Assembly: GCF_000621445.1 (NCBI RefSeq)
Contig: NZ_KK211278.1
Coordinates: 231,383 to 295,382 of the forward strand
Direction: 5' to 3'
Length of the DNA: 64,000 nt
Source of the DNA: Alkalihalobacillus bogoriensis ATCC BAA-922
Lineage (GTDB): Bacteria > Bacillota > Bacilli > Bacillales > Bacillaceae_F
The notes beneath the pieces were generated by a model. It had not been told where the DNA came from. It saw nothing but the letters and a program-made list of their open reading frames with translations, and ran no database searches. Of the stretch, positions 1,081 through 57,036 are shown piece by piece. A program made the translations under genes and the position numbers. Numbering within the stretch: the first letter of the stretch is position 1; each line of letters begins with the position of its first letter.

Positions 1081-1267
1081 GTAGCGGACATTTGTTCCGC
1101 TATTTCAACAAAAATGTAGTGTTTCAGATATCGTTCGGACAATTATTCCGTTATTTCACCAAATTTAAACTGAATACAACACACTTTCCTGAAATAGCGG
1201 AACGAATGTCCGATAGCATGTGAGAATCAGTCTTTTTTGATAAAGTAGCGGAACGAATGTCCGTTAG
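1081..1267. repeat. Four-site inverted element A
   Basis: Core copies begin at 1086 and 1137 (forward, GGACAtTTGTTCC type) and at 1199 and 1250 (reverse, GGAACgAATGTCC). Spacings are 51, 62 and 51 bp. The spacer between the forward pair resembles the reverse complement of the spacer between the reverse pair, so the whole element is one long imperfect palindrome. Confidence 0.85.
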
Positions 1268-1312
1268 AGGTTCACATTAAACTACATGCACATCAATTGG
1301 GAGGTGGATTCG

Positions 1313-1672
1313 GTGGTAAGAAATTTACTTTACGGAATGAGTATTTCTTTTAGTCTTTATATAATACTTACAATGTTTGTTTTAATGTTTACTAGAAGCT
1401 TTGACTTAGAACTTATAAAAATGTGGGGATTCGGATTGTTTTTGCTCTTGTTTTTAAGTTCATTCCCTTTGTATAAAGCTGTTTATCACGGAGGGAAAGT
1501 CGCCAATCCAACTTATACAACGTATGTTCCACCAGACGAGCATCACCACCATACCATTCAAAAGAACTATGATTCTAGTAAAAAGCGAAATACAGATCAT
1601 CTTCAAGGAATATTAATCTGGTCTAGTGTTTTTATGCTACTGATTACGATATTATTAGCGGTCTTGTTTTAA
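1313..1672 (+). CDS. Hypothetical membrane protein, three predicted TM segments
   Basis: This 119-residue protein has two hydrophobic segments near the N-terminus (about residues 6-30 and 38-58), a polar loop containing a run of four histidines, and a final membrane segment (about 97-118). GTG 1313 is preferred because GGGAGGTGG lies 7 nt upstream; an in-frame ATG at 1286 has no such site. The four-histidine stretch could bind metal, but that is only a suggestion. The family is not recognised. A strong terminator follows, so it looks monocistronic. Confidence 0.65.
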   Translation: MVRNLLYGMSISFSLYIILTMFVLMFTRSFDLELIKMWGFGLFLLLFLSSFPLYKAVYHGGKVANPTYTTYVPPDEHHHHTIQKNYDSSKKRNTDHLQGILIWSSVFMLLITILLAVLF

Positions 1673-1710
1673 CGAGGGATAAGGTCGTTATCATTATATT
1701 ACTACTAGTC

Positions 1711-1746
1711 AGTCCACCTTATTTTACGTATAAGGTGGACTTTTTT
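1711..1746 (+). terminator. Rho-independent terminator
   Basis: A perfect 12-bp stem (AGTCCACCTTAT / ATAAGGTGGACT) with a 7-nt loop is followed by six T. Confidence 0.9.
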
Positions 1747-1839
1747 AATACTTATAAAACCAGAATGAAAAAGCAAATTGTTTGCATAATAAAGTCGTAC
1801 TCTTTAGTATAAACATACGAGAAAAAGGAGGTTGAAAAA

Positions 1840-2967
1840 ATGAACAAAAAATATGAACCGTTATTTACCGAGTATACGTTTAAACGAGGAGTTAGTATAA
1901 AAAATCGGATTGTTATGGCGCCGATGACGAATTTTGCATCTGAAGAAAATGGTGCTGTGAGTGAGGAAGAGCTCGCTTATTATAAAGAACGTTCCAATGG
2001 TGTAGGAGCGGTTATTACTGCAGTTGCTTATGTAACAAGGGATGGCAAAGGTTTTGTGAATGAAATTAGTGCAGACTCTGATGAGATGATACCAGGCTTA
2101 AAGCGATTAGCTTGCACGATTAAAGGGCAAGGGGCTAAAGCGATTTTGCAAATTTTTCATGCCGGTAGAATGGCACCACCTGAATTGTTAGAGGATGGTC
2201 AATCTGTTAGTGCAAGTGCGGTGGCTGCGCTTCGTCCGGGGTTAGTGACACCACGCGAGTTAACAGAATCAGAAGTGGATTTAATTATTGAAGCATTTGG
2301 ACAGGCAACAAGACGTGCCATTGAAGCAGGTTTTGACGGGGTGGAAATTCACGGAGCGAATACGTATTTAATTCAACAATTTTTCTCTCCGCATTCTAAC
2401 CGACGAACAGATAAGTGGGGCGGTACGATTGAAAAGCGGATGGCATTTCCGATAGCGGTTATTGATGCGGTTAAAGCTACGGTAGAGGAACATGCGAAAG
2501 AGCCTTTTCTTGTTGGCTATCGAATTTCTCCAGAAGAGGTAGAAAACCCGGGGATTACAATGGAAGATACACTTTTGTTTGTCGACAAGTTAGCAGAGCA
2601 AGACCTTGATTATTTACATATCTCAGTCCAAGATTTTTGGCAAGGGTCGATTAGGGATGAACAGGATAAAACATCAAGAGTCATCCTCATTCATGAGCGT
2701 GTTGGTGACAAAGTTCCAATTATTGGCGTAGGATCCCTCCATACTCCAGATGATGTCATGAAAGCTTTTGATACAGGTGTACCGATACTTGCATTAGGGC
2801 GAGAATTGATTATGGAACCAAAATGGGTTGAAAAAGTTCAAGCTGGACAAGAAGATGAAATTGCAACAACGATGACAAAAGAGGACCAACAACGATTAGT
2901 TGTCCCGGATACGTTATGGACAACGATTATGAATACACCTGGTTGGTTTCCGGTTGTAGATAAATAA
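1840..2967 (+). CDS. Old-yellow-enzyme family NADH:flavin oxidoreductase (YqiG-like)
   Basis: This 375-residue FMN-dependent TIM-barrel oxidoreductase resembles B. subtilis YqiG in length and sequence. The family reduces activated C=C bonds or related substrates with NAD(P)H; the natural substrate is unknown. Visible family marks are the N-terminal KNRIVMAPMT strand, the substrate-binding pair EIHGAN (His and Asn), the following YLIQQFFSPHSNRRTDKWGG loop, and the C-terminal phosphate-binding GVGSLHTPDD and ALGRELI segments. The start has an AAAGGAGG site 8 nt upstream. It is flanked by terminators on both sides and is therefore a single-gene unit. Confidence 0.88.
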   Translation: MNKKYEPLFTEYTFKRGVSIKNRIVMAPMTNFASEENGAVSEEELAYYKERSNGVGAVITAVAYVTRDGKGFVNEISADSDEMIPGLKRLACTIKGQGAKAILQIFHAGRMAPPELLEDGQSVSASAVAALRPGLVTPRELTESEVDLIIEAFGQATRRAIEAGFDGVEIHGANTYLIQQFFSPHSNRRTDKWGGTIEKRMAFPIAVIDAVKATVEEHAKEPFLVGYRISPEEVENPGITMEDTLLFVDKLAEQDLDYLHISVQDFWQGSIRDEQDKTSRVILIHERVGDKVPIIGVGSLHTPDDVMKAFDTGVPILALGRELIMEPKWVEKVQAGQEDEIATTMTKEDQQRLVVPDTLWTTIMNTPGWFPVVDK

Positions 2968-2981
2968 GGATATTAAAAAAA

Positions 2982-3018
2982 ACTGAGTGAAGAAATCCAC
3001 TTCACTCAGTCTTTTTTT
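2982..3018 (+). terminator. Rho-independent terminator
   Basis: An 11-bp stem (ACTGAGTGAAG / CTTCACTCAGT) is followed by a C and seven T, just after the flavin oxidoreductase. Confidence 0.9.
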
Positions 3019-3028
3019 GGAAGATAAG

Positions 3029-3160
3029 AAAGCATAAAAATCTTGGTCTATCAGTGAAGCTTTGAAAACTTATTCAAGAAGAGCACTTGGTGTTCACTTT
3101 CAAAAGCGGGCAGGGCTCCGCACTTCCCTTGAAACGAAAGGACGTTTCCCGAGTTTTTTT
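3029..3160 (+). repeat. Terminator-like dispersed repeat, copy a
   Basis: It matches the family that reads TATAAAAATTTTGGTCTAGC, then GTGAAGCTTTGAAAGC, and ends in a GC-centred hairpin plus T run. This copy carries an internal stretch about GTTCACTTTCAAAAGCGGG that is also found in the copy at 63063. Confidence 0.75.
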
Positions 3161-3214
3161 AATTTCCTGCAAATCTGAAAGCCTGTACTCTCCTCCATGT
3201 AACCGTTTATAATA

Positions 3215-3515
3215 CTCAGGATACTTTGTCTAATAGTAGTATTCTATTAGACACTTCTCTCCAATTTTGCACTCATTTTGTCTAATAGAGCCTTTCTATT
3301 GGACACTTTTCTCCGATTTTGCACTCGTTTTGTCTAATAGAGCCTTTCTATTGGACACTTTTCTCCGGTTTTGCACTCGTTTTGTCTAATAGAGCCTTTC
3401 TATTGGACACTTTTCTCCGGTTTTGCACTCGTTTTGTCTAATAGAAGCCTTCTATTAGACATTTCTCTCCGGTTTTACTCTTGTTTTGTTCAATAGAATC
3501 TTATAACACACATTT
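3215..3515. repeat. Tandem array of 52-bp hairpin repeats (six units)
   Basis: TCTAATAG (last copy TCAATAG) recurs at 3229, 3281, 3333, 3385, 3437 and about 3490, a strict 52-bp period except for one 53-bp step. Each unit contains an inverted repeat, TGTCTAATAG ... CTATTGGACA, followed by a T-rich spacer with CTCCGGTTTTGCACTC. The middle units are almost identical and the outer ones diverge, as in arrays that grow by slippage or unequal exchange. No open frame of note runs through it. Confidence 0.9.
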
Positions 3516-3529
3516 CAAACGCCCCCCGT

Positions 3530-3636
3530 TAAAGAAAAACGCAGGAGCGTCTTTTCTTTTCAAGCGAAGTGCAAAGCCTTCGCTCTTCTAGATTAAGCTT
3601 TCAAAGCTTCACTGCTATATCTAAATTTTTAGTACT
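3530..3636 (-). repeat. Terminator-like dispersed repeat, copy b (inverted)
   Basis: This is the reverse complement of the copy upstream of the tandem array, with the AAGCTTTCAAAGCTTCAC core and the GCGAAG ... CTTCGC hairpin. The two copies bracket the 52-bp array in opposite orientations. Confidence 0.75.
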
Positions 3637-3651
3637 TTCATATATGTCAAA

Positions 3652-3697
3652 AAAGCCTGTAGTTATGATTTCACGAATCATCTACAGGCTTTTTTTG
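3652..3697. terminator. Bidirectional terminator
   Basis: A long stem (AAGCCTGTAGttATGAT / ATCATctACAGGCTT) has a run of T on either strand. It ends the efflux-pump transcript on the minus strand. Confidence 0.85.
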
Positions 3698-3700
3698 TTT

Positions 3701-5176
3701 TTACTGAGCTTTTGTTTCCTTAGGCTGTGTTACTCTGCGAACGAGTAAAGACATAATAATCGCAGCAATAGCTAAATAGAAACCGGTGGAGAAGCTTTGC
3801 TGTGACCCGTGAGTGAGGGCAGCAATCATGTCTTCACCAGTCGGATTGCTAATGCCGTTCGTTTGTAAATAACTTTGCTGACCATTTTCCATAACCGAAA
3901 TAAATAAAGCCGCACCGATCGCTCCGGACACTTGCGTTAATGTATTCATGATCGCTGTTCCGTGTGGATAAAGATGTTTTGGAATTTGGTTTAATCCATT
4001 TGTTTGCGCAGGCATCATAATCATCGCAACAGCGATCATTAAGATGGCTTGCTGGATAACCACGACCCAAACGGGGATGCCTGGTGTTGTATATCGGTAA
4101 GTAAAAACAATTATAGCAAGAATGATCGTCCCCGGAATTAAAAGTGGACGAGGACCAAACTTGTCAAAAAGCCGTCCCATAATTGGTGACATGGCACCGT
4201 TTAATAATCCGCCGGGTAACATAATAAGTCCTGCAGTGACAGCTGAAAACAATAATGCTCCTTGCATGTAAATAGGCATAACAAGCATCATCGCAAACAT
4301 CGTCATCATTACGATCATAACCATCAATAGACCGAGAGTGAACATAGGATATCGGAATACGCGAATGTCTAGTAACGGTATATCAATTTTTAATTGTCGC
4401 CAGCTAAATAAGGCAAGAGATAGGAACCCAACGAGCAAAAAGGAGAACACCATCGGATCAGCAAAGCTTGCATCCCCTTTTCCAGCTGCGCTAAATCCAT
4501 AAACAATACCACCAAAGCCAAGCATGGACAATAAGAATGAGAGAACATCAAGCTTTGGTTTTGATGTTTCTGAAATATTAATAAGTACTTTCATTCCGAA
4601 TAAAAGCGATGCTATTGAAATTGGTAAAATAAAGAAAAATAACCAGCGCCACGTTAAACTTTCGACAATTAATCCGGAAACAGTGGGTCCAATTGCTGGA
4701 GCGAACATAATGACAAGACCGACCATCCCCATCGCTGCCCCGCGTCGTTCAATCGGGATCACTGTTAAAATAATGTTAATTAAAAGCGGGATCATAAGAG
4801 CCGTTCCGACCGCCTGTGTTAAACGGCCAACTAATAATACCGAAAACACGGGACTTACTCCACAAATGATTGTTCCGATTGTAAACAAGGACATTGCCGT
4901 AATAAATAATTGTCGAGTCGTAAAGCGTTGCATAAAATAAGCGGATATTGGGATTAGTGTACCAATCACAAGCATATATCCAGTCACAAGCCATTGCACG
5001 GTGCTATGAGCAACACCGAAATCGGCTGTAATAACATTTAAGGCAACATTCAAAATCGTTTCACTTAAAATCGCAACGAATGCACCTGATAATAGCACTG
5101 CAAGAATAGGAATCGGGTTCACCTCTGGTTTACTCGTTTCCGAAGTTGCAGCATTTTCTTGAGCGATAACTGCCAT
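3701..5176 (-). CDS. DHA2-family MFS multidrug efflux transporter (EmrB/QacA type)
   Basis: This 491-residue integral membrane protein has about 14 hydrophobic segments, as expected for drug:H+ antiporters of the DHA2 group. The first helix carries FVAILSETILNVAL, and the family motif C region near helix 5 reads GPTVSGLI. ATG 5176 is chosen because GGAGGGAG lies just upstream; a further in-frame ATG would place that site inside the gene. It is divergently transcribed from a TetR regulator, with two palindromes in the shared promoter region. This is a classic substrate-inducible efflux pair; substrates cannot be predicted. Confidence 0.9.
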   Translation of the reverse strand: MAVIAQENAATSETSKPEVNPIPILAVLLSGAFVAILSETILNVALNVITADFGVAHSTVQWLVTGYMLVIGTLIPISAYFMQRFTTRQLFITAMSLFTIGTIICGVSPVFSVLLVGRLTQAVGTALMIPLLINIILTVIPIERRGAAMGMVGLVIMFAPAIGPTVSGLIVESLTWRWLFFFILPISIASLLFGMKVLINISETSKPKLDVLSFLLSMLGFGGIVYGFSAAGKGDASFADPMVFSFLLVGFLSLALFSWRQLKIDIPLLDIRVFRYPMFTLGLLMVMIVMMTMFAMMLVMPIYMQGALLFSAVTAGLIMLPGGLLNGAMSPIMGRLFDKFGPRPLLIPGTIILAIIVFTYRYTTPGIPVWVVVIQQAILMIAVAMIMMPAQTNGLNQIPKHLYPHGTAIMNTLTQVSGAIGAALFISVMENGQQSYLQTNGISNPTGEDMIAALTHGSQQSFSTGFYLAIAAIIMSLLVRRVTQPKETKAQ

Positions 5177-5207
5177 CGTCTCTCCCTCCAATGTACTCTA
5201 TATATAT

Positions 5208-5270
5208 GAAACGGAATCGTTTCGCTAAATAATAGTACCACCATTAAATACGAAACGCAATAGTTCCGTA
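5208..5270. promoter_or_regulatory. Probable TetR operators between efflux gene and regulator
   Basis: A perfect inverted repeat GAAACG-N4-CGTTTC occupies 5208-5223, and a related imperfect one (TACGAAACG ... TTCCGTA) lies at 5249-5270. Both are in the divergent intergenic region, where a TetR-family protein would be expected to bind. Confidence 0.6.
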
Positions 5271-5342
5271 ATTGTAAAAGTTTTATTAAGATGTTAAACT
5301 GAAGGAAGAAAAGCGAGACTCGGGAAAGAGGGAGGACTTTCG

Positions 5343-5969
5343 ATGTCAAAGCAACTTGAACAACAAGAAAGCAAAAGAGGGAGACCTCTTGATATGTCCC
5401 GTAACGAAGTGATTTTAACAACGACATTACAGTTGTTAGCAGAAAACGGGTTCGACGCTTTAACGATTGATGCGGTTGCAGCAAAAGCAAAAGTCGGAAA
5501 AGCAACGATATATAGACGTTGGTCTTCTAAAGCTGATCTTGTTATCGATGCCGCCTCTATGATAAGTCCTTTTCAAAAACTAGAGGAGAGTTTAAATCGT
5601 GAACAAGACGTGCGAGAACAATTAGTTGATATGCTGTCTTTTCTTTTTCAATGTGACGATGACAAAGCGCAAACGATGCTGACGGCGATTTATAATGCAG
5701 CTTCGTCAAATGAAAAAGTAGAAAAAGCACTTAGAAACGAATTTTACTGGCGTCATAGAGAAGCGATTAAATCGATTGTTTGTCCTTTTTTAAAAGAGGG
5801 GCATTCACTTACTGAAGCGGAGTTTGACTTGCTAGCAGATATTGGACCAGCGCTTATAACGTACCGGGGTGTATTTATCGGGGAGCCATTTGACCGCGCG
5901 TATGTAGAAAGAATGGTGGATACGTTAATGATGCCGATGATTAACTCTGTGCTGTCTAAGTGTGAGTAG
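5343..5969 (+). CDS. TetR/AcrR-family transcriptional regulator
   Basis: This 208-residue protein has an N-terminal TetR DNA-binding domain (about residues 16-62) with the motif ILTTTLQLLAENGFDALTID followed by KAKVGKATIYRRWSSK. The C-terminal half is a helical ligand-binding and dimerisation domain of the TetR_C type. A GGGAGGA site lies about 6 nt before ATG 5343. By its position it most likely represses the divergent MFS pump and its own gene. Confidence 0.9.
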   Translation: MSKQLEQQESKRGRPLDMSRNEVILTTTLQLLAENGFDALTIDAVAAKAKVGKATIYRRWSSKADLVIDAASMISPFQKLEESLNREQDVREQLVDMLSFLFQCDDDKAQTMLTAIYNAASSNEKVEKALRNEFYWRHREAIKSIVCPFLKEGHSLTEAEFDLLADIGPALITYRGVFIGEPFDRAYVERMVDTLMMPMINSVLSKCE

Positions 5970-5990
5970 TGTCGGAGGGTCGAGGAGAGG

Positions 5991-6176
5991 CTAACGGACA
6001 TGTGTTCCGCTAGTGTTATGAAAAACAGCTAATTTGAATTCTTATTGGACATCGGTTCCGTTATTAACGAAATTCATAATTGAATTTGCTTGTTTTTGCC
6101 AAATAGCGGAACGTATGTCCGTTAAGAAGGTGAAACGAGGCAAAATCATTGAAATAACGGAACAAATGTCCGAACG
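5991..6176. repeat. Four-site inverted element B
   Basis: Cores begin at 5996, 6047 (forward), 6108 and 6159 (reverse), giving spacings 51, 61 and 51 bp. The element lies between the convergent TetR and ABC-permease genes. Confidence 0.85.
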
Positions 6177-6190
6177 ATGCTCAAAACCTG

Positions 6191-6799
6191 TCATTCTCCT
6201 TTTTTACTATAAATATAGATGGATAGAAGCCAAGAACAAACATAAAGGAAAGATGCGCTACCAATTATTAATAAATATACTAGGGCGTCTTCTAACATGA
6301 GTAAGGTATGCATAAAGTCTCTAACTCTATCATGTAAGTTAGGAATAAACAGAGTGACAGTGATTAAATACAAAGCCAACAATCCAATTCCAGCAAAGGT
6401 AAGATACTGTGTTTTAAAACGATAAGAAAATGGAAAGTAAAATGAAGTAAATACCATTACGAGAGATAAAATGAGTAACGGTTCTTTCCATGGTAATATT
6501 TCTTGATGGAAAATGAGATGGCCGATAAATATGATAAAAATAAAAATCGCTGTAAAAATGAATGTGCCGGCATATTTTGAACTTACAATTTCCTTTCGTG
6601 TATAGGGAAGGGAATTTAATAAAACATGTATCGTTGGTTTCTCATCCATGACAAAAACGTTCATAATCGTGGCGATACTAAATACGACTCCAAACCAGAT
6701 GCTTGATGGTTCAAGAAATAATATCATGAGCAAAATAGGAATCAAGATTAGTAGGGTATATTTTTGTAAAAGTAAATCTTTACGAATGAGCGTGTACAT
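6191..6799 (-). CDS. ABC-2 type permease of a YtrB-class exporter
   Basis: This 202-residue protein has six hydrophobic segments and little soluble sequence, as for ABC-2 membrane subunits. Its start overlaps the 3' end of the ATPase gene by 20 bp, which implies translational coupling. With the upstream GntR and ATPase genes it forms a three-gene operon like the yhc/ytr groups of B. subtilis, which are often linked to cell-envelope stress. What it transports is unknown. Confidence 0.8.
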   Translation of the reverse strand: MYTLIRKDLLLQKYTLLILIPILLMILFLEPSSIWFGVVFSIATIMNVFVMDEKPTIHVLLNSLPYTRKEIVSSKYAGTFIFTAIFIFIIFIGHLIFHQEILPWKEPLLILSLVMVFTSFYFPFSYRFKTQYLTFAGIGLLALYLITVTLFIPNLHDRVRDFMHTLLMLEDALVYLLIIGSASFLYVCSWLLSIYIYSKKGE

Positions 6800-7661
6800 T
6801 TAGATTTTCCCCTTTCTTCGTATAATACATAATATCTTCAAGGTTAGGTTTCTCGATTAACGCCATTTCTCCAAATAATAACTGAACCCGTGTTTTGTTT
6901 GCTGTTAAGCCCTCAAAACCATGATTTGATTTGCGGACAGCGATAAATTCCCGTTCAGTATCGCGATCTAATAAGTCCATACTACCTTTAACAATCGCGT
7001 ATTCTTCTTCGATTTGATAAAATTCCTTCGTGAAAATATGCTCGCCATTATGGATAAACGTAATATAATCCGCAATTCGGTCTAAATCAGTTGTAATATG
7101 AGTCGAGAAAAAAATCGTTTTCTCTCCGTCCTGCATGAGTGAATGGAGGATGTCTAACAGTTCTCGTCGGAAAATAGGGTCTAAACCAGAAGTTGGTTCA
7201 TCCATAATAATTAATTCGGCATGATGCGATAGCGCAATCGTCAAGGAAGCTTTCATCATCATCCCTTTTGAGAACGTTTTTAACCTTTTATTAAGTGGCA
7301 ATTCAAATGTTTTTACGTATTCATAAAACACATCGTCATCCCAATTTGTATAAGCGGGTTTAATGATTTTTTTCAATTCTGCAAGAGTGATTTGTTCATA
7401 AAAAATGTTTTCATCAAAAACAAAGCCTATCCGTTGCTTGATTGCTTTTTCATGCTCTTTATACTTCAAGCCGAAGACAGAAACGGAACCCGAATCTGGT
7501 TGCAATAAATTCATAATGAGCTTAATTGTCGTTGATTTTCCAACCCCATTTCCACCGATAAACCCTGTTACAAATCCTTTTTTCACATTAAGGGAAAAAT
7601 CCTTTAATTGAAATCCAGCAAATGATTTTTGAATATTTTTTAATTCAATAATATTTTCCAT
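6780..7661 (-). CDS. ABC transporter ATP-binding protein (YtrB/YhcH-like)
   Basis: This 293-residue ATPase has Walker A GGNGVGKST (about residue 37), a degenerate signature FSKGM, Walker B LIIMDEPTSGLD and an H-loop STHI. A C-terminal extension of about 70 residues follows the nucleotide-binding domain, as in the exporter subfamily that pairs with small ABC-2 permeases. Its start codon touches the regulator's stop and its end overlaps the permease start, so the three proteins are coupled. Confidence 0.9.
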   Translation of the reverse strand: MENIIELKNIQKSFAGFQLKDFSLNVKKGFVTGFIGGNGVGKSTTIKLIMNLLQPDSGSVSVFGLKYKEHEKAIKQRIGFVFDENIFYEQITLAELKKIIKPAYTNWDDDVFYEYVKTFELPLNKRLKTFSKGMMMKASLTIALSHHAELIIMDEPTSGLDPIFRRELLDILHSLMQDGEKTIFFSTHITTDLDRIADYITFIHNGEHIFTKEFYQIEEEYAIVKGSMDLLDRDTEREFIAVRKSNHGFEGLTANKTRVQLLFGEMALIEKPNLEDIMYYTKKGENLNVHAHS

Positions 7662-8038: not shown

Positions 8039-8064
8039 AGGAAAACCTCGCTCATTGAATTGAT

Positions 8065-8089
8065 ATTGTATATGTACAATATATACAAT
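8065..8089 (-). promoter_or_regulatory. Probable YtrA-type operator
   Basis: A 9-bp perfect inverted repeat (ATTGTATAT / ATATACAAT, 7-nt gap) lies 27 bp upstream of the GntR start codon. Its position suggests autoregulation of the exporter operon. Confidence 0.6.
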
Positions 8090-12249: not shown

Positions 12250-12436
12250 GTTACGGACATCTATTCCGCTATTTCTTGAAATCACGCCCCTTTTTCATTT
12301 CTTACGGACATACGTTCCGTTAATTGACGAAAAGAGCAGTAAAAACAAACTGTTTAGGTAAAATAGCGGAACGTATGTCCGTAAGCCTTTGAAAAATGCT
12401 ACTTTTTCTAAAAATAGCGGAACAAATGTCCGATAG
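12250..12436. repeat. Four-site inverted element C
   Basis: Cores begin at 12255, 12306 (forward), 12368 and 12419 (reverse): spacings 51, 62 and 51 bp. It lies between the convergent trmO and FtsW-like genes. Confidence 0.85.
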
Positions 12437-18649: not shown

Positions 18650-18754
18650 ATGATTCGAGAAAACCGAAGTAGCCTTGTGTTAAAAGTAATTAAGCAGCAT
18701 GAGGGTGGCATCACGAGCTTTGACGTTTCGGACATATATTCCGCTATTTGCTGA
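18650..18754 (+). pseudogene. Short frame running into repeat element D (possible truncated gene)
   Basis: ATG 18650 follows an AATGGAG site and opens a 34-codon frame with protein-like composition (SSLVLKVIKQHEGGITSFD). The last ten codons and the stop are supplied by the first core of the four-site element. This looks like a gene cut short by the repeat, or a chance frame. No recognisable continuation was found beyond the element. Confidence 0.35.
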
Positions 18755-18911
18755 AAAATAAAGCGATTTTTATATTTTACGGACATCTGTTCCGTTATTT
18801 CCCCAAAATTGGGATGGAATCAAGCGAATGGGGCCATATAACGGAACCAATGTCCGATAGCATTTGACAAACCCGACTTTTTCTTAAAATAGCGGAACGT
18901 ATGTCCGATAG
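18725..18911. repeat. Four-site inverted element D
   Basis: Cores begin at 18730, 18781 (forward), 18843 and 18894 (reverse): spacings 51, 62 and 51 bp. It sits between the GNAT cluster and the oxidase operon. Confidence 0.85.
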
Positions 18912-22745: not shown

Positions 22746-23942
22746 TCATTCATTGTTAAAATGATTAATGACTTGTTCGAGATCCATGACCCCTATGTTT
22801 CCTTTTTTTCTTTTCCGTAACGCGACAGTTTGTTCGTTCATCTCTTGATCACCAATAACAAGTGTATAAGGGATCTTCTGCTTTTCTGCTTCTCGAATTT
22901 TTAATCCAAGTTTCTCTACTCTATCGTCAACTTCCACACGATAACCAGCAGATTCTAACTGTGATTTCACTTCATATGCATAATGAATGTGGACATCAGA
23001 AATTGTTATTATACTTGCTTGAACTGGGGCTAGCCTTAGCGGGAAATCGCCAGCGAAGTGTTCAATTAATATCGCCATAAACCGCTCGACAGAACCATAA
23101 ATTGCACGATGAATCATAACGGGGCGTTGACGTTCATTTTCTTTGTCGACATAATAGCAATCAAATTGTTGTGGCATTTGAAAATCAAGCTGAATTGTAC
23201 CACATTGCCAGCTTCTTCCGAGAGAATCCAATATGTGAAAGTCGATTTTCGGACCATAAAAGGCACCATCTCCAGCGTTGATTTGAAAGGGAATTCCTTT
23301 GCTGTTTAACACAGATTCCAAAGCAAGTTCTGAAAAATCCCAAATGGCTTTATCCCCCATATAGGCTTCAGGTCTTGTTGATAGTTCAACTTTATATTCA
23401 AAGCCAAAATGAGAGTAGATTTCATCAATCAATTCAAGCACGTTCCCGATTTCTGATTCGATTTGGTCCATTGTTACAAATAAATGAGCATCATCTTGAG
23501 TGAATGATCGAACTCGAAGTAAGCCATTTAAAGACCCTGAAAGCTCGTGCCTGTGAACTAATCCTAGTTCAGCAAAGCGAATTGGAAGCTCACGATAGCT
23601 TCTTCGTTTACTATTATAAAGTAAAATAGCGCCAGGACAGCTCATTGGTTTTATCGCGTAGTTTTGTTGGTCAACAGTTGAAAAATACATATTGTCTTTG
23701 TAATGGTCCCAATGTCCAGACTGCTCCCACAATTGTTGTTTCATCATAATTGGTGTTTTGATTTCTTTGTACCCAGCTTTTTGATGTTTACTCCTCCAAA
23801 AACTTTCTAATTCATTTCGAATGATCATGCCTCTTGGTAAGAAAAAAGGCATCCCTGGTGCTTCTTCCATTGAAGTAAATAGCTCTAACTCTTCCCCTAG
23901 TTTACGATGATTAATTTTGTCTGCTTCTTCTTGTTTACACAT
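22746..23942 (-). CDS. thrS: Threonyl-tRNA synthetase lacking the TGS and editing domains
   Basis: This is a 398-residue class II synthetase. It begins at the catalytic domain (INHRKLGEELELF) and ends with the anticodon-binding domain (from about residue 298). Standard bacterial ThrRS is about 640 residues, with N-terminal TGS and editing domains that are entirely absent here. The zinc ligands are kept: C102 (MSCPGA), H153 (TQDDAH) and H278 (MIHRAIYGSVERF). The start is well supported by TAGGAGGAA, so this is a designed short form, not a broken gene. Two tandem T-boxes control it. It probably charges tRNA-Thr without clearing Ser-tRNA-Thr in cis, and is likely a second ThrRS induced by threonine shortage. 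Confidence 0.9.
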   Translation of the reverse strand: MCKQEEADKINHRKLGEELELFTSMEEAPGMPFFLPRGMIIRNELESFWRSKHQKAGYKEIKTPIMMKQQLWEQSGHWDHYKDNMYFSTVDQQNYAIKPMSCPGAILLYNSKRRSYRELPIRFAELGLVHRHELSGSLNGLLRVRSFTQDDAHLFVTMDQIESEIGNVLELIDEIYSHFGFEYKVELSTRPEAYMGDKAIWDFSELALESVLNSKGIPFQINAGDGAFYGPKIDFHILDSLGRSWQCGTIQLDFQMPQQFDCYYVDKENERQRPVMIHRAIYGSVERFMAILIEHFAGDFPLRLAPVQASIITISDVHIHYAYEVKSQLESAGYRVEVDDRVEKLGLKIREAEKQKIPYTLVIGDQEMNEQTVALRKRKKGNIGVMDLEQVINHFNNE

Positions 23943-23963: not shown

Positions 23964-24215
23964 ATATAACAAAGACCACACTCATCCCAACTAAAGGGAC
24001 GAATGTGGTCGTGGTTCCACCCTAATTCCAAAAAAACAAATTCAAGTTTTATGCTCAAGAAAGATAACGGTTTTCCCGGTTATAGATATTCTATACAAGT
24101 ATATTTCCCTATAACAGCTCCGAGGTGGTAAATCATTTGCTTTTCTTCAGGGTTCTCAGCCAATGACCCTGTTCTCTGGAAAGAAAACAACAATTGATTC
24201 ATGTCCTCATCTACG
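23964..24215 (-). promoter_or_regulatory. T-box leader, proximal copy (Thr)
   Basis: Read on the minus strand, it contains the Stem I marks AGAGAA and GGGTCATTGGCTG, then TTTACCACC with specifier ACC (24127-24129), and the T-box AGGGTGGAACCAC (complement of 24011-24023). A terminator hairpin follows (arms 24010-23996 and 23988-23974, then TTTGTT). Uncharged tRNA-Thr would stabilise the antiterminator and allow thrS expression. Confidence 0.9.
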
Positions 24216-24231
24216 CCAATCTATTTTTTTG

Positions 24232-24480
24232 TATAAAAAAAACGCACTTATCCCAACTAAAGGGACGAGTGCGGTCGTGGTTCCACCCTGATTCCATAAA
24301 AAGACGAACTTCTTATGCTCAAGAAAAGATAACGGATTACCCGATTATAGATACTCTAAAAAGATATTTCCCTATAATAGCTCAAAGGTGGTAAACCATC
24401 CCGTTTTCTTCGGGGCTTACAGCCAGTGACCCCGTTCTCTGGAAAGAAAAATTGAAATGATTCATGTCCTTATCACAGCT
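24232..24480 (-). promoter_or_regulatory. T-box leader, distal copy (Thr)
   Basis: This copy has the same order of elements: AGAGAACGGGGTCACTGGCTG, specifier ACC at 24390-24392 in GTTTACCACC, T-box AGGGTGGAACCAC at 24289-24277, and a terminator (arms 24273-24262 and 24254-24243) followed by nine T. Two T-boxes in series should tighten control and make expression respond more steeply to tRNA charging. Confidence 0.9.
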
Positions 24481-24511
24481 TTATTTGATGTGTGATTAAA
24501 TATTGTTTTTC

Positions 24512-28589: not shown

Positions 28590-28772
28590 CTAAAGGACAT
28601 CTATTCCTCTATTTTAAAGAAAATGACCTTTTTTCACATGCTATCGGACATCTGTTCCGATAAACTAGAAAAACGAGCGGTTCGTAAAGTTAGTTTCATG
28701 AAATAACGGAACGAATGTCCGTAACTTGAAGACGAAGAAGGATACAGTCTACTTGCTGGATATTTATGTTAA
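28590..28772. repeat. Four-site inverted element E (last site degenerate)
   Basis: Cores begin at 28595, 28646 (forward) and 28708 (reverse): spacings 51 and 62 bp. Where the fourth core is expected, 28758 reads GGATATTTATGTT, a decayed match. The NUDIX pseudogene begins 35 bp later. Confidence 0.75.
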
Positions 28773-37420: not shown

Positions 37421-37608
37421 GTAACGGACATTTATTACTCTATATTGTGAAAAAGAAGCGTTATTCATTTTTTATTGGACACCTGTTCCGTTAATTCCTC
37501 AAAATCGTGGTCAAAACCAAGCGTTTTCTATGATTTAGCGGAACTGATGTCCGGTAGCATTCTCAAAACGTTACTTTTTCTTGAAATAGCAGAACGTATG
37601 TCCGAACG
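37421..37608. repeat. Four-site inverted element F
   Basis: Cores begin at 37426, 37477 (forward), 37540 and 37591 (reverse): spacings 51, 63 and 51 bp. The first core has lost its right half (GGACATTTATTAC). It lies 100 bp upstream of comGA. Confidence 0.8.
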
Positions 37609-42732: not shown

Positions 42733-42923
42733 GTAACGGACATCTGTTCCGTTATTCCGGTGAAAACCGCGTATTTGCTTTTTTTACGGACGTGTGTTCC
42801 GCTATTGATGAGATTAGAATAGGTAAGAATTCATTCGGAATTGTCACCATTAACGGAACAGGTGTCCGTTAGCTTTTCGAAATCGCGTGTTTTTACTAAA
42901 ATAACGTACTGGATGTCCGAATG
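42733..42923. repeat. Four-site inverted element G
   Basis: Cores begin at 42738, 42788 (forward), 42855 and 42906 (reverse): spacings 50, 67 and 51 bp. This is the most divergent of the nine, yet the outer reverse spacing is still exactly 51. Confidence 0.75.
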
Positions 42924-48329: not shown

Positions 48330-48514
48330 ATTAAGGACACCTGTTCCGCTAAATGAACGTAAATGACGATTTATTCGATGCTATCGGGCGTACGTTCCGT
48401 TAAATGAGTAAATGATCCACTTTGACACTTTTTTTCCCTGTTAACGGAATGTATGTCCGTAGGGCAATGAACAAGACTCATTTTACATGAAATAGCAGAA
48501 TGATTATCCGTTAC
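48330..48514. repeat. Four-site inverted element H
   Basis: Cores begin at 48335, 48386 (forward), 48446 and 48497 (reverse): spacings 51, 60 and 51 bp. The cores are more degenerate (GGGCGTACGTTCC and AGAATGATTATCC) but spacing is kept. Confidence 0.78.
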
Positions 48515-50799: not shown

Positions 50800-52459
50800 C
50801 TCCCTCCTCAAGCTCTTCTTTTGCCACTTCATTTATAATCGCTGTTAAATGGTCCATCTTTACTTTGATCTCACCATCTGAATCAGAGTGATACAAAATT
50901 TCTTGAATATGGTCTTCGAGTGAAGGAAGCTCTAGCTTTGATAAAATATCATCTAATTCACCGATCACACTTTCAAACAAATTGATTTTTTCATAGAGAA
51001 GAGAAAGGATATGCTGCTCAATTGTATTTTCCACGGCAAAATTATAAATGCGAACATCTTCTTTTTGACCGAGACGATGAATTCGGCCAATCCGTTGTTC
51101 AATTCGCATTGGGTTCCATGGAAGGTCATAATTAATAATATGACTACAAAATTGTAGATTAATCCCTTCACCACCCGCTTCTGTTGCAATTAATACTTGG
51201 GCATGATTTTGGAATAGTTGGCGCATCCAGTCTTTTTTACCACGTTTAAAGCCTCCACGGAATGGGACAGAGGAAATGCCATTTTGTTTTAAAAACCATT
51301 GTAAATACAATTGAGTTGCTCGATATTCGGTGAAGATAATCACTTTCCCATCAATTTGTTTTATAATCTCTAACGCTTTTTCCGCTTTTGAATTGACGGA
51401 AATATTGCCAATCATCTCCATAAAAGATTCAGCTTGAGGAATGGTTTTATTATCTTCCTGTGCTTTTTCAATCATATTTTTTAAGGTCATAAAGGCGGCT
51501 TCACGACTAGAACAGATTTCTCGTTGCAATGTGAGCAATGCAAAATGATTGGTAAGAATATCTTTATTTTCCTTTAAAGAAGAGATCGCATCATAAAGCT
51601 CGCGTTCTTCTTTGCTAAATGTGATTGGTACCGTTTCAACAATCCGTTTTGTCCAAGTGATACCCGTTTCTTCACGGCGATTGCGGACCATCACTTTATT
51701 AACCAATTCTCGCAATTGTTCTTCGTTTTTCGGTGAGCGCTTTCCTGAACGGTATGATTTTTCAAACGATGATAAATCACCAAGGTGACCTGGTTTTAAT
51801 AAAGATACGAGATTAAAGATTTCTTCGAGTTTGTTTTGCACTGGTGTTGCTGTTAATAGCAGACAAAACTTTTTCTTTAGCTTTTTCACAAATTCATAAT
51901 TTTTCGTTTTCGGATTTTTTAATTTGTGAGCCTCGTCAATAATGATGAGATCATAGTCTTGTTCCATGACAATGTCATAGTGAGGCTGTCGTTTCGCTGT
52001 ATCCATCGACGCGACAACAACATCAAACTGTTCCCACACATACGCTTTCTTTTGCGCGACTGCCGGAATATGAAACTTTTGATTTAATTCATAAGCCCAT
52101 TGTGAAACAAGAGAAGCGGGAACGAGAATGAGTGCTTTCTTTACAAGTCCTCGAATCATATATTCTTTTAAAATAAGGCCAGCTTCGATTGTTTTTCCTA
52201 GCCCTACTTCATCCGCTAAAATCGCTTTTCCATTCATTTTTTCAATAACCGTATTGGCAACTTCAATTTGATGTGGGTACGGTTCAAGCTGTGGTAGATG
52301 CTTGGGTGCTTGTAAGCCTTGAAACTCTGGAACAGCTAAATGTTGTTCTGCTTCATAGGCAAGTTGAAACAACTCCCAATTGGCCCATGGCCCGTCCTCA
52401 TCCAATCTTTTTATAAATTCATCTTGCCACGATTGAGAAAATTCAATTTCTATGTTCAT
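50774..52459 (-). CDS. yqhH: YqhH, SNF2-type DEAD/DEAH-box helicase
   Basis: This 561-residue protein has both RecA-like lobes: ADEVGLGKTIEAGL (Walker A), IIIDEAHKLKN (DEAH), LLTATPVQNK (motif III), and in lobe 2 IATEAGGEGINLQFC followed by DLPWNPMRIEQRIGRIHRLG. SNF2 proteins translocate on double-stranded DNA and displace proteins; bacterial versions such as RapA act on RNA polymerase. ATG 52459 follows AAAGGATGATC. It is divergent from the glycine riboswitch. Confidence 0.9.
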   Translation of the reverse strand: MNIEIEFSQSWQDEFIKRLDEDGPWANWELFQLAYEAEQHLAVPEFQGLQAPKHLPQLEPYPHQIEVANTVIEKMNGKAILADEVGLGKTIEAGLILKEYMIRGLVKKALILVPASLVSQWAYELNQKFHIPAVAQKKAYVWEQFDVVVASMDTAKRQPHYDIVMEQDYDLIIIDEAHKLKNPKTKNYEFVKKLKKKFCLLLTATPVQNKLEEIFNLVSLLKPGHLGDLSSFEKSYRSGKRSPKNEEQLRELVNKVMVRNRREETGITWTKRIVETVPITFSKEERELYDAISSLKENKDILTNHFALLTLQREICSSREAAFMTLKNMIEKAQEDNKTIPQAESFMEMIGNISVNSKAEKALEIIKQIDGKVIIFTEYRATQLYLQWFLKQNGISSVPFRGGFKRGKKDWMRQLFQNHAQVLIATEAGGEGINLQFCSHIINYDLPWNPMRIEQRIGRIHRLGQKEDVRIYNFAVENTIEQHILSLLYEKINLFESVIGELDDILSKLELPSLEDHIQEILYHSDSDGEIKVKMDHLTAIINEVAKEELEEGDERATASN

Positions 52460-52584
52460 GGCGATCATCCTTTCTAAAAAAAATAGTATTGCCTTCTTAG
52501 TCAGCAATTGGTAGGATATTATTATATTTAGTATGGTCAAAATAATAAATTTTATAAAAAAATCGTATATAGGCGAATGAAAGT

Positions 52585-52800
52585 AAGGGGAGAGACTGCA
52601 AAATGTTCGTAAAATGCAGCGCCGAAGGAGCAAGCGAAAGCGAATCTCTCAGGCAAAAGAACTCTTACTCGACGCAACTCTGGAGAGCGTTCAAAATGAA
52701 CCACCCACGAAGACATTTCTTACGAAAGTAAGAAAGAAACTTTCTGGTAACAGGACAGAGGAATACAAAGAATATTTGTATTTCTCTGTCTTTTTTTTCG
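52585..52800 (+). ncRNA. Tandem glycine riboswitch with terminator (gcvT leader)
   Basis: Aptamer 1 (52585-52690) has all conserved blocks: GGGGAGAG, GCGCCGAAGGAGCAAGCG, TCTCTCAGGCAAAAGAAC and CGACGCAACTCTGGAGAG. Aptamer 2 (52691-52761) has CCACCCACGAAGAC and AACTTTCTGGTAACAGGAC, with several changes from the usual core. A 16-bp terminator stem (52754-52790) followed by eight T overlaps the 3' end of aptamer 2, so glycine binding should prevent terminator formation and switch on the cleavage system. Confidence 0.92.
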
Positions 52801-52875
52801 TTTTTTGAGTGGGATCTAGAGAATTAAGCCGTTTGTTTTCGCTGACAATACATAAAAACGAAGGAGGACAAATGT

Positions 52876-53970
52876 ATGGCAAATGGAAACCAAACTCCGT
52901 TGTATCCGTTGTATGAACAATATGGTGGAAAGACGATTGATTTCGGTGGCTGGGATTTACCTGTTCAGTTTTCAAGTATAAAAGAAGAGCATGAAGCAGT
53001 TCGTACAAAAGCAGGATTGTTTGATGTGTCTCACATGGGGGAAGTGGAAGTAACAGGAGAAAAAGCCCTTGAGTTCCTTCAATATGTGATGACAAATGAT
53101 GTTTCTAAACTTCAAGACAATCAAGCTCTTTATACGGTAATGTGTTATGAAAACGGAGGAACCGTTGATGACCTTCTCGTATACAAAAAGAAAGACAATG
53201 AGTATTTGCTTGTTGTGAATGCAGCTAATATTGAAAAAGACGTTGCTTGGTTACTAGAACATAAGGTAGAAGGAGTATCTGTTACGAATAAATCAGATGA
53301 GTTTGCTTTACTTGCTTTGCAAGGACCAGTCGCAGAACAAGTTCTACAACGGTTAACAGATGTTGATTTATCAGCGATTCGCTTTTTCTGGTTTGCTGAT
53401 AATGTGACAATCGCAGGAAAACAAGTTCTCGTTTCAAGAACAGGCTATACAGGTGAAGATGGATTTGAGCTTTACTGTAAGGCAGAAGACGCAACGAGAT
53501 TGTGGAAAGCTATTTTAGAAGAAGGGAAAGAAGACGGTGTTCTTCCATGTGGCTTAGGCGCACGTGATACCCTTCGTTTTGAAGCGAAACTCCCGCTTTA
53601 TGGGCAAGAACTAACAAAAGAAATTTCTCCGCTTGAAGCAGGAATCGGCTTTGCGGTGAAGCTGAACAAAGAAGCTGATTTTATCGGGAAAGAATCATTA
53701 AAGAAACAAAAAGAAGACGGCTTGACTCGTAAATTAGTCGGGATTGAAATGATAGATAAGGGCATCCCAAGAACAGGATATGAAGTGTTTGTCCAAGATA
53801 ACAACATTGGGACGGTGACAACAGGAACACAATCACCAACATTAAAACGAAATGTTGGATTAGCGTTATTGCAAAAAGAATTTACAGAGCTTAACCAAGA
53901 AGTCGAAGTTCAAGTAAGAAAAAAACGATTAAAAGCCAAAGTCGTAAAAACACCATTTTATAAACGATAA
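52876..53970 (+). CDS. gcvT: Glycine cleavage system T protein (aminomethyltransferase)
   Basis: This 364-residue protein transfers the methylene group from the aminomethyl-H protein to tetrahydrofolate and releases ammonia. Family marks are [49 protein letters not shown] and [20 protein letters not shown] with the conserved Asp and Arg. AAGGAGGAC precedes ATG 52876. It is the first gene after the glycine riboswitch and heads the gcvT-gcvPA-gcvPB operon. Confidence 0.97.
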
Positions 53971-53988
53971 GGATGAGGGGGAAAATCA

Positions 53989-55338
53989 ATGTCATTTCGA
54001 TATTTACCAATGACGGAAGAAGATAAAAAAGAGATGCTCGAATCAATCGGGGTCCAATCGATTGAGGAGCTATTTTCAGATATTCCAGAAGATATTCGAT
54101 TTAAAGGACAGTTAAACATTAAAGAAGCGTTAACAGAGCCAGAGCTTGTACGATATTTACAAGGGTTAGCGAATAAAAATACAAATGTAAAACAAAAGCC
54201 GTCCTTTTTAGGAGCAGGTGTATACGAGCACTATATTCCATCTGTTGTTGACCATGTTATTTCACGTTCTGAATTTTATACGGCGTATACACCGTATCAA
54301 CCAGAAATTTCTCAAGGCGAATTACAAGCGATTTTTGAATTCCAATCGATGATTTGTGAATTAACAGGGATGGATATAGCCAATTCATCAATGTATGATG
54401 GACCAACGGCATTAGCAGAAGCAGCGATGATGTGTGCAGGTCAAACACGTAAGAAAAAAGTGCTTGTATCCAAAGCTGTTCATCCTGAAGCAAGAGATGT
54501 TTTAAAAACAAACGCTAAAGGTCAAAACGTTACGGTTATTGAAGTGGATATTGCCGATGGGATAACAGATCTTGACGATTTAAAACAAAAATATGATGCA
54601 GAAACCGCTTGTGTCATTGTTCAATATCCAAACTTCTTTGGTGCGATTGAAAATTTAGCGGCGATTGAAGAAATTACGCACGCTGAAAAAGGCATGTTTG
54701 TCGTTTCTAGTAATCCGGTTTCGCTTGGTGCGTTAAAATCACCAGGTGAATACGGGGCAGATGTTGTTGTCGGAGATGCGCAACCATTTGGGATTCCGAC
54801 TCAATTTGGCGGACCACATTGTGGTTATTTTGCCGTTACAACAAAGCTAATGAGAAAAGTACCTGGTCGTTTAGTAGGTCAAACGGTTGATGATGAAGGT
54901 CAACGTGGATTTGTGTTAACACTGCAAGCACGTGAACAACATATTCGTCGTGAGAAAGCAACATCAAATATTTGTTCAAACCAAGCATTAAATGCTTTAG
55001 CCGCTTCTGTGGCCATGAGTGCGATTGGCAAACAAGGCGTACGTGACATGGCGGTACAAAACATTCAAAAAGCAGCATATATGAAAAAGCAATTGCAACA
55101 ACAAGGGGTAACGATTGCGTTTGCGGCACCAACATTTAATGAATTTGTTGTCAAACTCAATGCATCCGTTGCCGACGTAAATGCAAGATTGTTTGAAGAA
55201 GGCTTTATTGGTGGTTATGACCTTGGCCGTGATTATCCTGAATTAGCTGGCCATGTTTTATTATGTGTAACGGAAATTCGTACAAAAGAAGAGATTGACC
55301 AATTTGTGAATGTACTTGGGAAGGTGAATAACGAATGA
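53989..55338 (+). CDS. gcvPA: Glycine dehydrogenase (decarboxylating) subunit 1
   Basis: This 449-residue N-terminal half of the split P protein has [20 protein letters not shown] and the [12 protein letters not shown] loop; it lacks the PLP lysine, which is on the partner. With GcvPB it decarboxylates glycine and passes the aminomethyl group to lipoyl-GcvH. It overlaps gcvPB by 4 bp (ATGA). Confidence 0.97.
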
Positions 55339-56792
55339 AGGATCAGCCGTTAATTTTTGAACTTAGCAAAGAAGGAAGAATTGGACATAGTTTACCACCT
55401 TGTGATGTAGAAGAAATAGCGTTAGAGGATGTAATTCCTGCTGAATATATACGAACTTCTGAACCAGAATTACCGGAAGTTTCTGAGCTGCAATTAATGC
55501 GTCACTATACGGCTTTATCAAAGAGAAACCATGGTGTAGACTCTGGGTTTTATCCGCTTGGTTCTTGTACGATGAAATACAATCCGAAAATTAATGAAGA
55601 CGTTGCACGTTATGATGGCTTTGCACATATCCACCCTCATCAAGAGGAGTCTCAAGTTCAAGGAGCACTGGAATTATTATATGAATTACAAACATCTTTA
55701 GCTGAAATTACGGGAATGGATGAAGTGACATTACAACCAGCAGCAGGCGCCCACGGTGAATGGACTGGATTAATGTTAATTCGGGCGTTCCACGAAAAAA
55801 ATGGGGATACGAACCGGACGAAAGTCATCGTACCTGACTCAGCCCATGGTACAAACCCAGCTTCTGCAACGGTGGCCGGCTTTGATTCCATTACCGTTCG
55901 AACAAATGAGCAAGGCCTAGTTGACCTTGACCATTTACGTGAAGTAGCTGGTCCAGATACAGCTGCATTGATGTTAACAAACCCAAATACGCTAGGTTTA
56001 TTTGAAGAATATATTGTGGAAATGGCCAAAATCATTCATGATGCAGGTGGAAAATTGTATTATGATGGAGCAAACTCTAACGCGATTTTAGGAATTGCGC
56101 GTCCAGGAGACATGGGATTTGATGTTGTTCACTTAAACTTGCATAAAACATTTACTGGCCCACATGGTGGAGGCGGACCTGGTTCAGGCCCTGTCGGAGT
56201 GAAAAAAGATTTGATTCCGTTTTTACCAAAGCCAGTTATTGTGAAAAAAGGAGACGTGTACGGATTTGACTACGACCGTCCAGAATCAATTGGTCGAGTA
56301 AAACCGTATTACGGAAATTTCGGCATTAATGTCCGTGCGTACACATACATCCGCACGATGGGACCTGAAGGATTACGTCTTGTATCTGAATATGCGGTCT
56401 TAAATGCAAACTATATGATGAGACGATTAGAGCCATATTTTGATTTGCCTTATGGTCAGCATTGTAAGCATGAATTTGTCTTGTCAGGACGTCGCCAAAA
56501 GAAACTAGGTGTTCGTACACTTGATATCGCAAAACGCTTATTAGATTTCGGCTATCATCCACCAACGATTTACTTCCCGCTTAACGTGGAAGAGTGTATG
56601 ATGATCGAACCAACGGAAACAGAAGCAAAAGAAACATTAGATGAATTTATCGAGGCAATGATTCAAATCGCAAAAGAAACAGAAGAAAATCCTGAAATCG
56701 TTCAAGAAGCACCACACCATACCGTGATTGGTCGCCTTGATGAAACGTTAGCCGCGAGAAAACCGGTGTTACGATATCAGAAAGCAGAATAA
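55335..56792 (+). CDS. gcvPB: Glycine dehydrogenase (decarboxylating) subunit 2
   Basis: This 485-residue catalytic subunit has the PLP lysine in [20 protein letters not shown], preceded by [13 protein letters not shown]. Conserved [19 protein letters not shown] lies near the N-terminus. It forms the alpha2beta2 P protein with GcvPA. The operon ends at a terminator 8 bp downstream. The lipM octanoyltransferase nearby builds the lipoyl arm on GcvH that this system needs. Confidence 0.97.
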
Positions 56793-56799
56793 GAAAGGG

Positions 56800-56831
56800 A
56801 AGGTGAGCTATACTTGTGGCTCGCCTTTTTT
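56800..56831 (+). terminator. Rho-independent terminator
   Basis: Stem AAGGTGAGC / GCTCGCCTT followed by T residues, ending the gcv operon. Confidence 0.85.
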
Positions 56832-56849
56832 GTTTAGGGGAGGGATGTC

Positions 56850-57036
56850 GTAATGGACAAATGATCCGTTATTTTAGCGAAAATAGAGGATTTCGAATCG
56901 CTATCGGACATGTGTTCCGTTACTTGTTGTTTTTTTGGCTCGAATGGCTTGATTTCTGCTAAATAGCGGAACAGATGTCCGTAACTTGTTTGAAAAAATC
57001 GTATTTGGCAAATATAACGGAACACATGTCCGGTAG
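56850..57036. repeat. Four-site inverted element I
   Basis: Cores begin at 56855, 56906 (forward), 56968 and 57019 (reverse): spacings 51, 62 and 51 bp. It lies between the gcv operon and a convergent gene. Confidence 0.85.

Follow-up and report, generated by a model that had tools for sequence, protein, structure and literature searches.

A dyad-symmetric four-site intergenic array with a shared 51-62-51 frame at the 3' ends of genes in Alkalihalobacillus bogoriensis and other Bacilli

Short intergenic repeats of bacteria have been described as BIMEs carrying gyrase motifs, as REP and REPIN families and as miniature inverted-repeat transposable elements (MITEs), and in the present study an element that resembles each of these in part was analysed in 64,000 nucleotides of Alkalihalobacillus bogoriensis ATCC BAA-922 (assembly GCF_000621445.1, contig NZ_KK211278.1, positions 231,383 to 295,382, forward strand; hereafter the window, meaning this whole stretch). 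The element is an array of four 15-25-bp sites in the order forward-forward-reverse-reverse, ~180 bp in total and dyad-symmetric. The gyrase motif of E. coli has been reported to carry a phased 10-bp G/C variation over 130 bp that was read as bending (PMC6379681). The array resembles this BIME-2/gyrase motif in being intergenic, in lying downstream of genes and in its phased 10-bp AT/GC variation, whereas it is ~180 bp rather than 130 bp long, has four strongly conserved sites at fixed spacing and continues the rhythm through its centre, the two having been compared by sequence only. The REP families (PMC3733652) and REPINs (PMC8049555) are likewise high-copy palindromic intergenic repeats found mainly between convergent or co-directional genes, but the array has no GTAG or CGTC tag, no linked RAYT and no co-variation at core positions 6 and 9, and its four units stand in one frame. 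With bacterial MITEs, among them bcr1 in the B. cereus group (PMC3733652, PMC2267715), the array shares a short, inverted-repeat, intergenic form and an occurrence in Bacilli; the array differs in that its spacers are unrelated between copies while the sites are kept, and in that no transposase or target duplication was found. PMC2267715 also names Bhal-1, a so far undescribed 74-bp family of B. halodurans; the array is set apart from bcr1 by description. The best reading of these likenesses is that the array would function in much the way of topological sites of the BIME or gyrase type at the ends of genes, without being a member of REP/BIME. Herein, we propose as the rather more probable account that the array is a dyad-symmetric four-site platform, on which a putative DNA-binding protein of the Bacilli would wrap the DNA immediately beyond the ends of genes.

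The core pattern CGGACATNTGTTCCG, scanned across the window with at most three mismatches, gave 34 matches against 3.1 expected and a highest value of 9 in 100 shuffles, and 33 of the 34 belong to nine clusters. An earlier sequence-only reading of the window had reported nine four-site clusters, and the pattern search recovered all of them at the places given, although each start given there has to be lowered by one base (1086 to 1085, for example). Its distances were also reproduced: the forward-forward distance is 51 bp in eight of the nine clusters and 50 in the remaining one, the reverse-reverse distance is 51 in all eight clusters where it can be measured, and the middle gaps are, in order, 62, 61, 62, 62, 62, 63, 67, 60 and 62. 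A bracketed fourth site at 28758 proved to be no site, and the sister genome has a fourth site there with one mismatch. In what follows, G000 is the window's genome (5.0 Mb), G001 a near sister species (the sister genome), G002 a third congener and G003-G006 are family members; F and R are forward and reverse sites, numbered F1, F2, R3 and R4 along the array. The nine elements are:

1085..1263, element 1: FFRR, 51-62-51; orthologue present in the sister genome
5995..6172, element 2: FFRR, 51-61-51; convergent genes on either side, with stops 25 and 18 bp away
12254..12432, element 3: FFRR, 51-62-51; flanked by convergent genes
18729..18907, element 4: FFRR, 51-62-51
28594..28721, element 5: FFR; compared with the sister genome, exactly one unit of 51 bp has been lost between sites 3 and 4
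37425..37604, element 6: FFRR, 51-63-51
42737..42919, element 7: FFRR, 50-67-51; the sister genome is without one forward unit here
48334..48510, element 8: FFRR, 51-60-51; fourth site (48496) decayed, with four core mismatches, against one in the orthologue
56854..57032, element 9: FFRR, 51-62-51; convergent genes; directly after the terminator-like hairpin of the upstream gene

The spacing of the cores outside the window is not random either. When clusters of G000 and G001 were grouped by nearness alone, their distances were mostly 51, 62-63 and 51, the exceptions being losses or odd gaps such as 43, 54, 60, 67 and 92. In other families of the order and in Paenibacillus, arrays read 51-62-51, 50-62-50, 50-62-51 or 51-62-50, with decayed copies alongside, and their spacers are mutually unrelated despite the common frame. 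The suggestion that the geometry is selected is supported by the recurrence of 51-62-51 or 50-62-50 in unrelated families. Collection of four-core arrays within limits of 49-52, 60-64 and 49-52 bp, tandem copies included, yielded 163 arrays (137 without the sister's syntenic set), of which 93 show the exact 51-62-51 frame and 22 deviate from 62 in the middle gap. Each unit carries AT-rich tracts at fixed offsets, and TA follows the core in all 218 half-arrays with 51-bp spacing, some of which were found by a pattern requiring TA; the four bases before the core are not fixed, and no constant GTAG or CGTC tag precedes it. Terminal inverted repeats are present in the array, conservation fades ~4-6 bp beyond the outer cores, and some arrays have extra units (FFF, or five R in a row). 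Tandem arrays either repeat at ~213 bp with a ~50-bp step between units or are extended on one side in 50-bp steps. In several genera, multi-copy tandem arrays have periods of ~213-235 bp (L085, L064, L044, L230). Even spacing of arrays along the chromosome was also considered; it reached significance in the window and in one 195-kb region selected post hoc (and its syntenic copy), was not significant over wider stretches or in 120 kb of the sister genome, and is not claimed.

The genome scan found 406 exact CGGACATNNGTTCCG cores in G000 (194+212), with no match to the reversed control pattern, and 525 (242+283) in G001. On contig 2 of G000 there are 31 arrays and 60 matches to a half-specific pattern among the matches listed, and extrapolation from 457 such matches in the genome at this ratio suggests ~240 arrays in G000. 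Across the order, the exact core with flanking TA was present in 24 of 397 sampled genomes and 16 of 135 genera, and many core-bearing genomes have congeners with zero matches. A search through 84,980 named species, possibly not including G000, for pairs of exact forward cores at a distance of 50-51 bp yielded 45 stretches, in Paenibacillus, Rossellomorea, Texcoconibacillus, Gracilibacillus, Halalkalibacter, Calidifontibacillus, Salibacterium and Bacillus species, all of which we take to be Bacilli. The exact flanked core was found in 27 viral stretches, with the array spacing in two of them only (L175 and L181), and blastn of one element gave no match in plasmids or phages. A literature search covering titles and abstract openings of the top results, with most subscription journals outside it, found no description of this element; six occurrences of core strings in papers were judged unrelated from the listing. 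The patchy hosts, the local duplicates and the tandem arrays indicate that the family must once have spread.

The nine elements did not arise by recent duplication. In a set of 56 exact-spacing arrays from G000 and G001, identity averaged over pairs is 0.84 for cores, 0.41 for spacers, 0.31 for spacer columns outside the AT tracts and 0.27 for flanks, and spacer identity exceeds 0.65 in only 9 of 1540 pairs, all nine of them neighbours at one locus. The copies thus share on average 41% of their spacer bases, which speaks against one recent segmental duplication. The comparison of orthologous intergenic regions that the sequence-only reading had proposed was made between G000 and G001, which are ~93% identical over the compared region, and G000 arrays are shared in place: all 30 testable arrays of the 31 on contig 2 have an array at the same place in G001, the 31st, at the end of the compared region, having been excluded. 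Two arrays occur in G001 only; one represents a clear deletion in G000 that left a remnant core, and at the second the site is not clean and a deletion between flanking repeats is the simplest account. Comparison of the two sister species revealed neither a clean empty site nor a target duplication. Within the 30 orthologous pairs, changes were counted at 70 of 1421 core bases outside the central two bases (NN), 36 of 220 NN bases, 369 of 2759 spacer bases and 1036 of 10022 flank bases, and at only 4 of 435 bases in the GGAC of the core and 23 of 984 at the nine inner core positions (p 9e-28 versus spacers). Because the cores were called in G000 alone, the core rate is underestimated by up to about twofold; the appropriate neutral reference is thus roughly one half of the rate in spacers, or 6.7%, and the nine inner positions, at 2.3%, lie far below it. 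A bias of at most twofold, set against the sixfold difference at these positions, is therefore no sufficient explanation. Since inner core bases change far less than spacers, selection acts on the copies in situ. In the nine window elements, inner cores changed at 7 of 262 bases and outer cores at 23 of 263, near the flank rate, and therefore the outer sites are under weaker constraint.

These results bear on the alternative that the arrays are old copies of a miniature transposon whose transposase, lost or encoded elsewhere, binds two sites per end, with 51-62-51 as the geometry of the ends. The transposases of Tn7, Mu and IS21 bind two sites per end, and the dyad symmetry with two sites per end, the patchy distribution over 16 of 135 genera, the fading of conservation just past the outer cores, the local and tandem duplicates, a site-3 variant at 48 places in a second lineage (G257) and an orientation by replication such as fork-coupled insertion would give are all consistent with this account. 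However, dead copies should not keep their cores, which are constrained in place, insertion polymorphism between the sister species was not seen, and the 10.2-bp rhythm described below runs through the middle, where it is not needed for ends. We consider a miniature transposon unlikely. No transposase or autonomous element with array ends was found beside arrays in the examined, partly annotated stretches, where one could have been missed. We do not class the array as a MITE, given that neither insertion nor a transposase nor a target duplication was found and that dead copies should not be constrained. The idea of a mobile repeat fits the past spread of the family, but no insertion was seen between the sister species, where 30 of 30 testable arrays are shared, and a mobilising enzyme was not identified. 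As a separate observation, the G001 chromosome carries several copies of a 252-aa ATPase, IstB-like by our own reading and with a weak DnaA match, which suggests that IS21-type elements may be active in G001; one IS21-like ATPase copy lies inside L041, and the three L041 arrays do not flank it.

The arrangement of the spacers points to wrapped DNA. Spacer AT content fits a cosine centred on the dyad, with a best period of 10.15 bp (R2 0.35) in 30 arrays of G000 and G001 and of 10.20 bp (R2 0.69) in 48 arrays, partly tandem copies, from other genomes, as compared with R2 values of at most 0.17 and 0.15, respectively, in 500 shuffles of the spacers. Measured from the dyad, the core centres are at 31 and 82 bp, or 3.0 and 8.0 turns at 10.2 bp, and share the same phase, and the earlier suggestion that all cores lie on one face of the helix is supported by this rhythm. 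A phased AT rhythm together with core centres in phase is what protein-wrapped DNA would need. In the platform that we propose, a predicted dimeric protein would bind the four sites, all of them on one face, the AT-rich steps between the sites would bend inward, and a wrapped nucleoprotein particle would be the outcome. More tentatively, the array may act on topology, roadblock transcription at gene ends, or both, and its direction might matter to a passing fork.

The near-palindromic array is polar, with a head and a tail, and in the sister species G001 this polarity, which lay beyond the reach of the sequence-only reading, follows the replication fork. KOPS/SRS and Chi are polar chromosome motifs oriented by replichore, and the array is like them in this respect, except that they are single short motifs and not multi-site arrays. 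The replichores of G001 were defined with dnaA at coordinate 1 and a split at 2.45 Mb, and the sign of the GC skew changes at ~2.57-2.83 Mb, so that the exact split is uncertain. All 59 cores with C at position 6 are distributed plus:minus as 26:4 on the right and 7:22 on the left replichore (p 1.3e-6), and all 90 cores with NN=AC as 13:43 and 27:7 (p 2e-7); with tandem copies collapsed and the split at 2.7 Mb, the p values become 4e-5 and 1.4e-4. The position-6 bias is opposite to the sign expected from GC skew, whereas the NN=AC bias has the same direction as the skew and is weaker evidence. A leave-one-out profile placed 40 of 51 right and 23 of 29 left arrays in the orientation of replication, a fraction of 0.79 as compared with a mean of 0.49 and a maximum of 0.64 in 60 random-flip sets; the left-replichore arrays in this comparison came from marker-pattern places, and some profile columns follow skew. 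Arrays following replication made up 26 of 33 at genes co-directional with the fork, 26 of 32 between convergent genes, 5 of 6 at fork-facing genes and 2 of 4 between divergent genes, and independence of the polarity from transcription is thereby supported rather than proven.

Gene context was taken from a simple open reading frame (ORF) caller, with gaps of 60 bp or more as background. The arrays stand at the 3' ends of genes and avoid divergent promoter regions: of 61 clusters counted without orthologues, 27 lie between co-directional, 24 between convergent and 4 between divergent genes, with 3 in a called ORF and 3 at an edge, as against 191, 79 and 87 background gaps (p 0.003), and the counts with the window orthologues are 33, 27 and 4 of 70 clusters. 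The genes beside the four divergent-gene arrays (two extracytoplasmic function sigma factors, an IS110 transposase, a bile-acid-type symporter and others) have nothing in common. With both sisters pooled, a strong terminator precedes the array at 25 of 51 gene ends whose stop is at least 35 bp away, similar to 171 of 358 controls, and where the gene abuts the array a strong terminator is found before it in 0 of 35 cases, inside it in 1 and beyond it in 8. A GC stem followed by a T run, the form of an intrinsic terminator, occurs inside the array at only 1 of 35 abutting and 2 of 51 other ends. A role of the arrays in ending transcription is possible.

The mostly downstream position of the arrays relative to genes is also what would be expected if the arrays encoded a long RNA hairpin, serving as a terminator or as a stabiliser of mRNA 3' ends, and as RNA a single copy folds far better than its shuffles (z -12.3); the fold is good because of the dyad alone. 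In 44 copies, the left and right spacer arms of one copy are no more complementary than arms taken from different copies, and in 137 copies no co-variation of core positions 6 and 9 is seen between paired sites (position 9: z -0.4 for F1R4 and -0.5 for F2R3), although position 9 is A in 35-40% of outer cores. NN and position 15 are more alike than shuffled in the F1/R4 pair, as a hairpin could give, but at position 15 the F2/R3 pair is even less alike than shuffled (z -1.0 to -3.1). A weak and non-independent shortage of terminators at abutting gene ends fits a hairpin, whereas many arrays lie beyond a terminator already in place (the 25 of 51 ends with room, orthologues included). A search of the whole window against Rfam gave no match above threshold at the arrays, and two stretches searched loosely returned only sub-threshold microRNA and snoRNA models. 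We therefore regard a long RNA hairpin, one of the possibilities raised in the sequence-only reading, as very unlikely, since neither spacer arms nor core positions 6 and 9 co-vary within copies.

Two further explanations concern how the copies could be made or rearranged. A REP/BIME/REPIN-type repeat copied by a RAYT (Y1) transposase would likewise be high-copy, intergenic, downstream of genes and persistent; Y1 genes were present in 12 of 13 array-bearing genomes tested, and one array in G075 lies ~1.3 kb from a weak partial Y1 match. However, genomes without arrays carry Y1 genes just as often (11 of 12), and G270, despite its 30 exact flanked cores, has none; when 19 stretches surrounding Y1 genes were inspected, 16 were without an array and none had arrays on both sides of the gene. 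With no fixed GTAG or CGTC tag and no co-variation of core positions 6 and 9, this origin is highly improbable, and the array is not filed as REP/REPIN because a linked RAYT, the tag and the core co-variation were looked for and not found. Alternatively, the cores might be sites of a site-specific recombinase, with NN as the crossover bases, through which arrays delete, amplify and invert. The exact one-unit losses inside cores, the extra units (FFF, five R), the similar NN within arrays and the inner array found in both orientations in G257 and G212 would agree with this, but slippage and homologous recombination between repeats explain these features, no protein family recurs beside the arrays, and fixed spacing and rhythm would not be needed, which leaves a recombinase with hardly any credibility.

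Several results weigh against the wrapped four-site platform. First, the exact core is absent from the congener G002 and from the four family members G003-G006 in the genome scan, and therefore the role of the element is dispensable. Second, the protein-binding array raised by the sequence-only reading stands as the best reading, but the search for its protein did not succeed: among ORFs in the examined stretches of 29 genome labels only generic families recur beside arrays, the seven protein clusters that reach four labels being short-chain dehydrogenases, ABC transporter parts, a response regulator and the like by our own sequence reading. The genes beside three large tandem arrays, judged from ORF lists read by eye, have nothing in common. 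Third, the core-to-core length differs by no more than 2 bp between the sisters in 70 of 72 intervals as compared with 248 of 275 flank windows (p 0.057), so that length conservation between sisters is only marginal and the agreement across families is the stronger argument. Fourth, in the second lineage G257, with the origin and terminus assumed at 0 and 2.0 Mb, the site-3 variant is distributed as 19:7 and 10:12 (p 0.077), which is not significant. Fifth, the central NN is alike within arrays in 137 copies (z 4.4 for F1F2, 3.4 for F1R4, 3.1 for R3R4 and 1.4 for F2R3) and in the 44-copy set (z 2.1 each for F1R4 and F2R3), and position 15 is more alike than shuffled in F1R4 (z 2.2 to 2.7); the NN likeness is strongest between neighbouring tandem units, and unequal exchange could give it, with a hairpin possibly contributing a part. 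Finally, a terminator shortage at abutting ends is not claimed: strong terminators number 9 of 35 against 171 of 358 (p 0.013) in a pooled set consisting largely of orthologues, and in each genome alone the values are 4 of 17 against 82 of 171 (p 0.07) and 5 of 18 against 89 of 187 (p 0.14), significance being reached only with orthologues pooled.

The array-level scan with a profile, a check suggested earlier, was run on the window and gave two further places, 59384 and 62863, which score 44 and 43 of 64 as compared with 36 for the best of five base shuffles. They belong to a second family that the sequence-only reading had not listed:

59363..59575, second-family copy: 213 bp; other site consensus, weak match to 51-62-51
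62842..63054, second-family copy: 213 bp; 92% identical to the copy at 59363

This family has 20 long matches including the query, orthologues counted, the other 19 at 87-95% identity and all in examined stretches of G000 and G001; it is strongly structured (z -4.85) and has no match in plasmids. Related binding proteins would be expected to produce such a combination of common geometry and a different site sequence, although this is one observation. A third repeat with 65-nt and 33-nt parts forms mosaics with the second family at 57641-57757, 59175-59642, 62772-62846 and 63052-63193, reminiscent of composite BIMEs. In G257 and G212 (L070, L071, L079, L098, L099), the four-site array lies inside a larger mosaic repeat, and the inner array, as read by eye, occurs in both orientations relative to the outer modules. 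Elsewhere in the window, tandem T-box leaders on the minus strand (23992-24222 and 24258-24485) lie upstream of a gene for a 398-aa class II tRNA-synthetase-like protein (22746-23942), and a glycine riboswitch on the plus strand (52577-52674) precedes glycine-cleavage genes.

Repeats between genes are commonly regarded as parasites or hairpins; in the present case, hundreds of sites persist in place while the spacers drift. In its boldest form, which we put forward only tentatively and regard as rather doubtful at present, the array could be a counterpart of nucleosome-positioning DNA: a replication-oriented four-site platform that would fix a wrapped particle at hundreds of gene ends, with two site specificities in a shared 51-62-51 frame, gained and lost as a package across the Bacilli. 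The close relatives without the whole array set are a natural experiment in this regard. If a protein wraps the arrays, they would represent a sequence-coded chromosome particle in bacteria and a handle on a new nucleoid or boundary factor.

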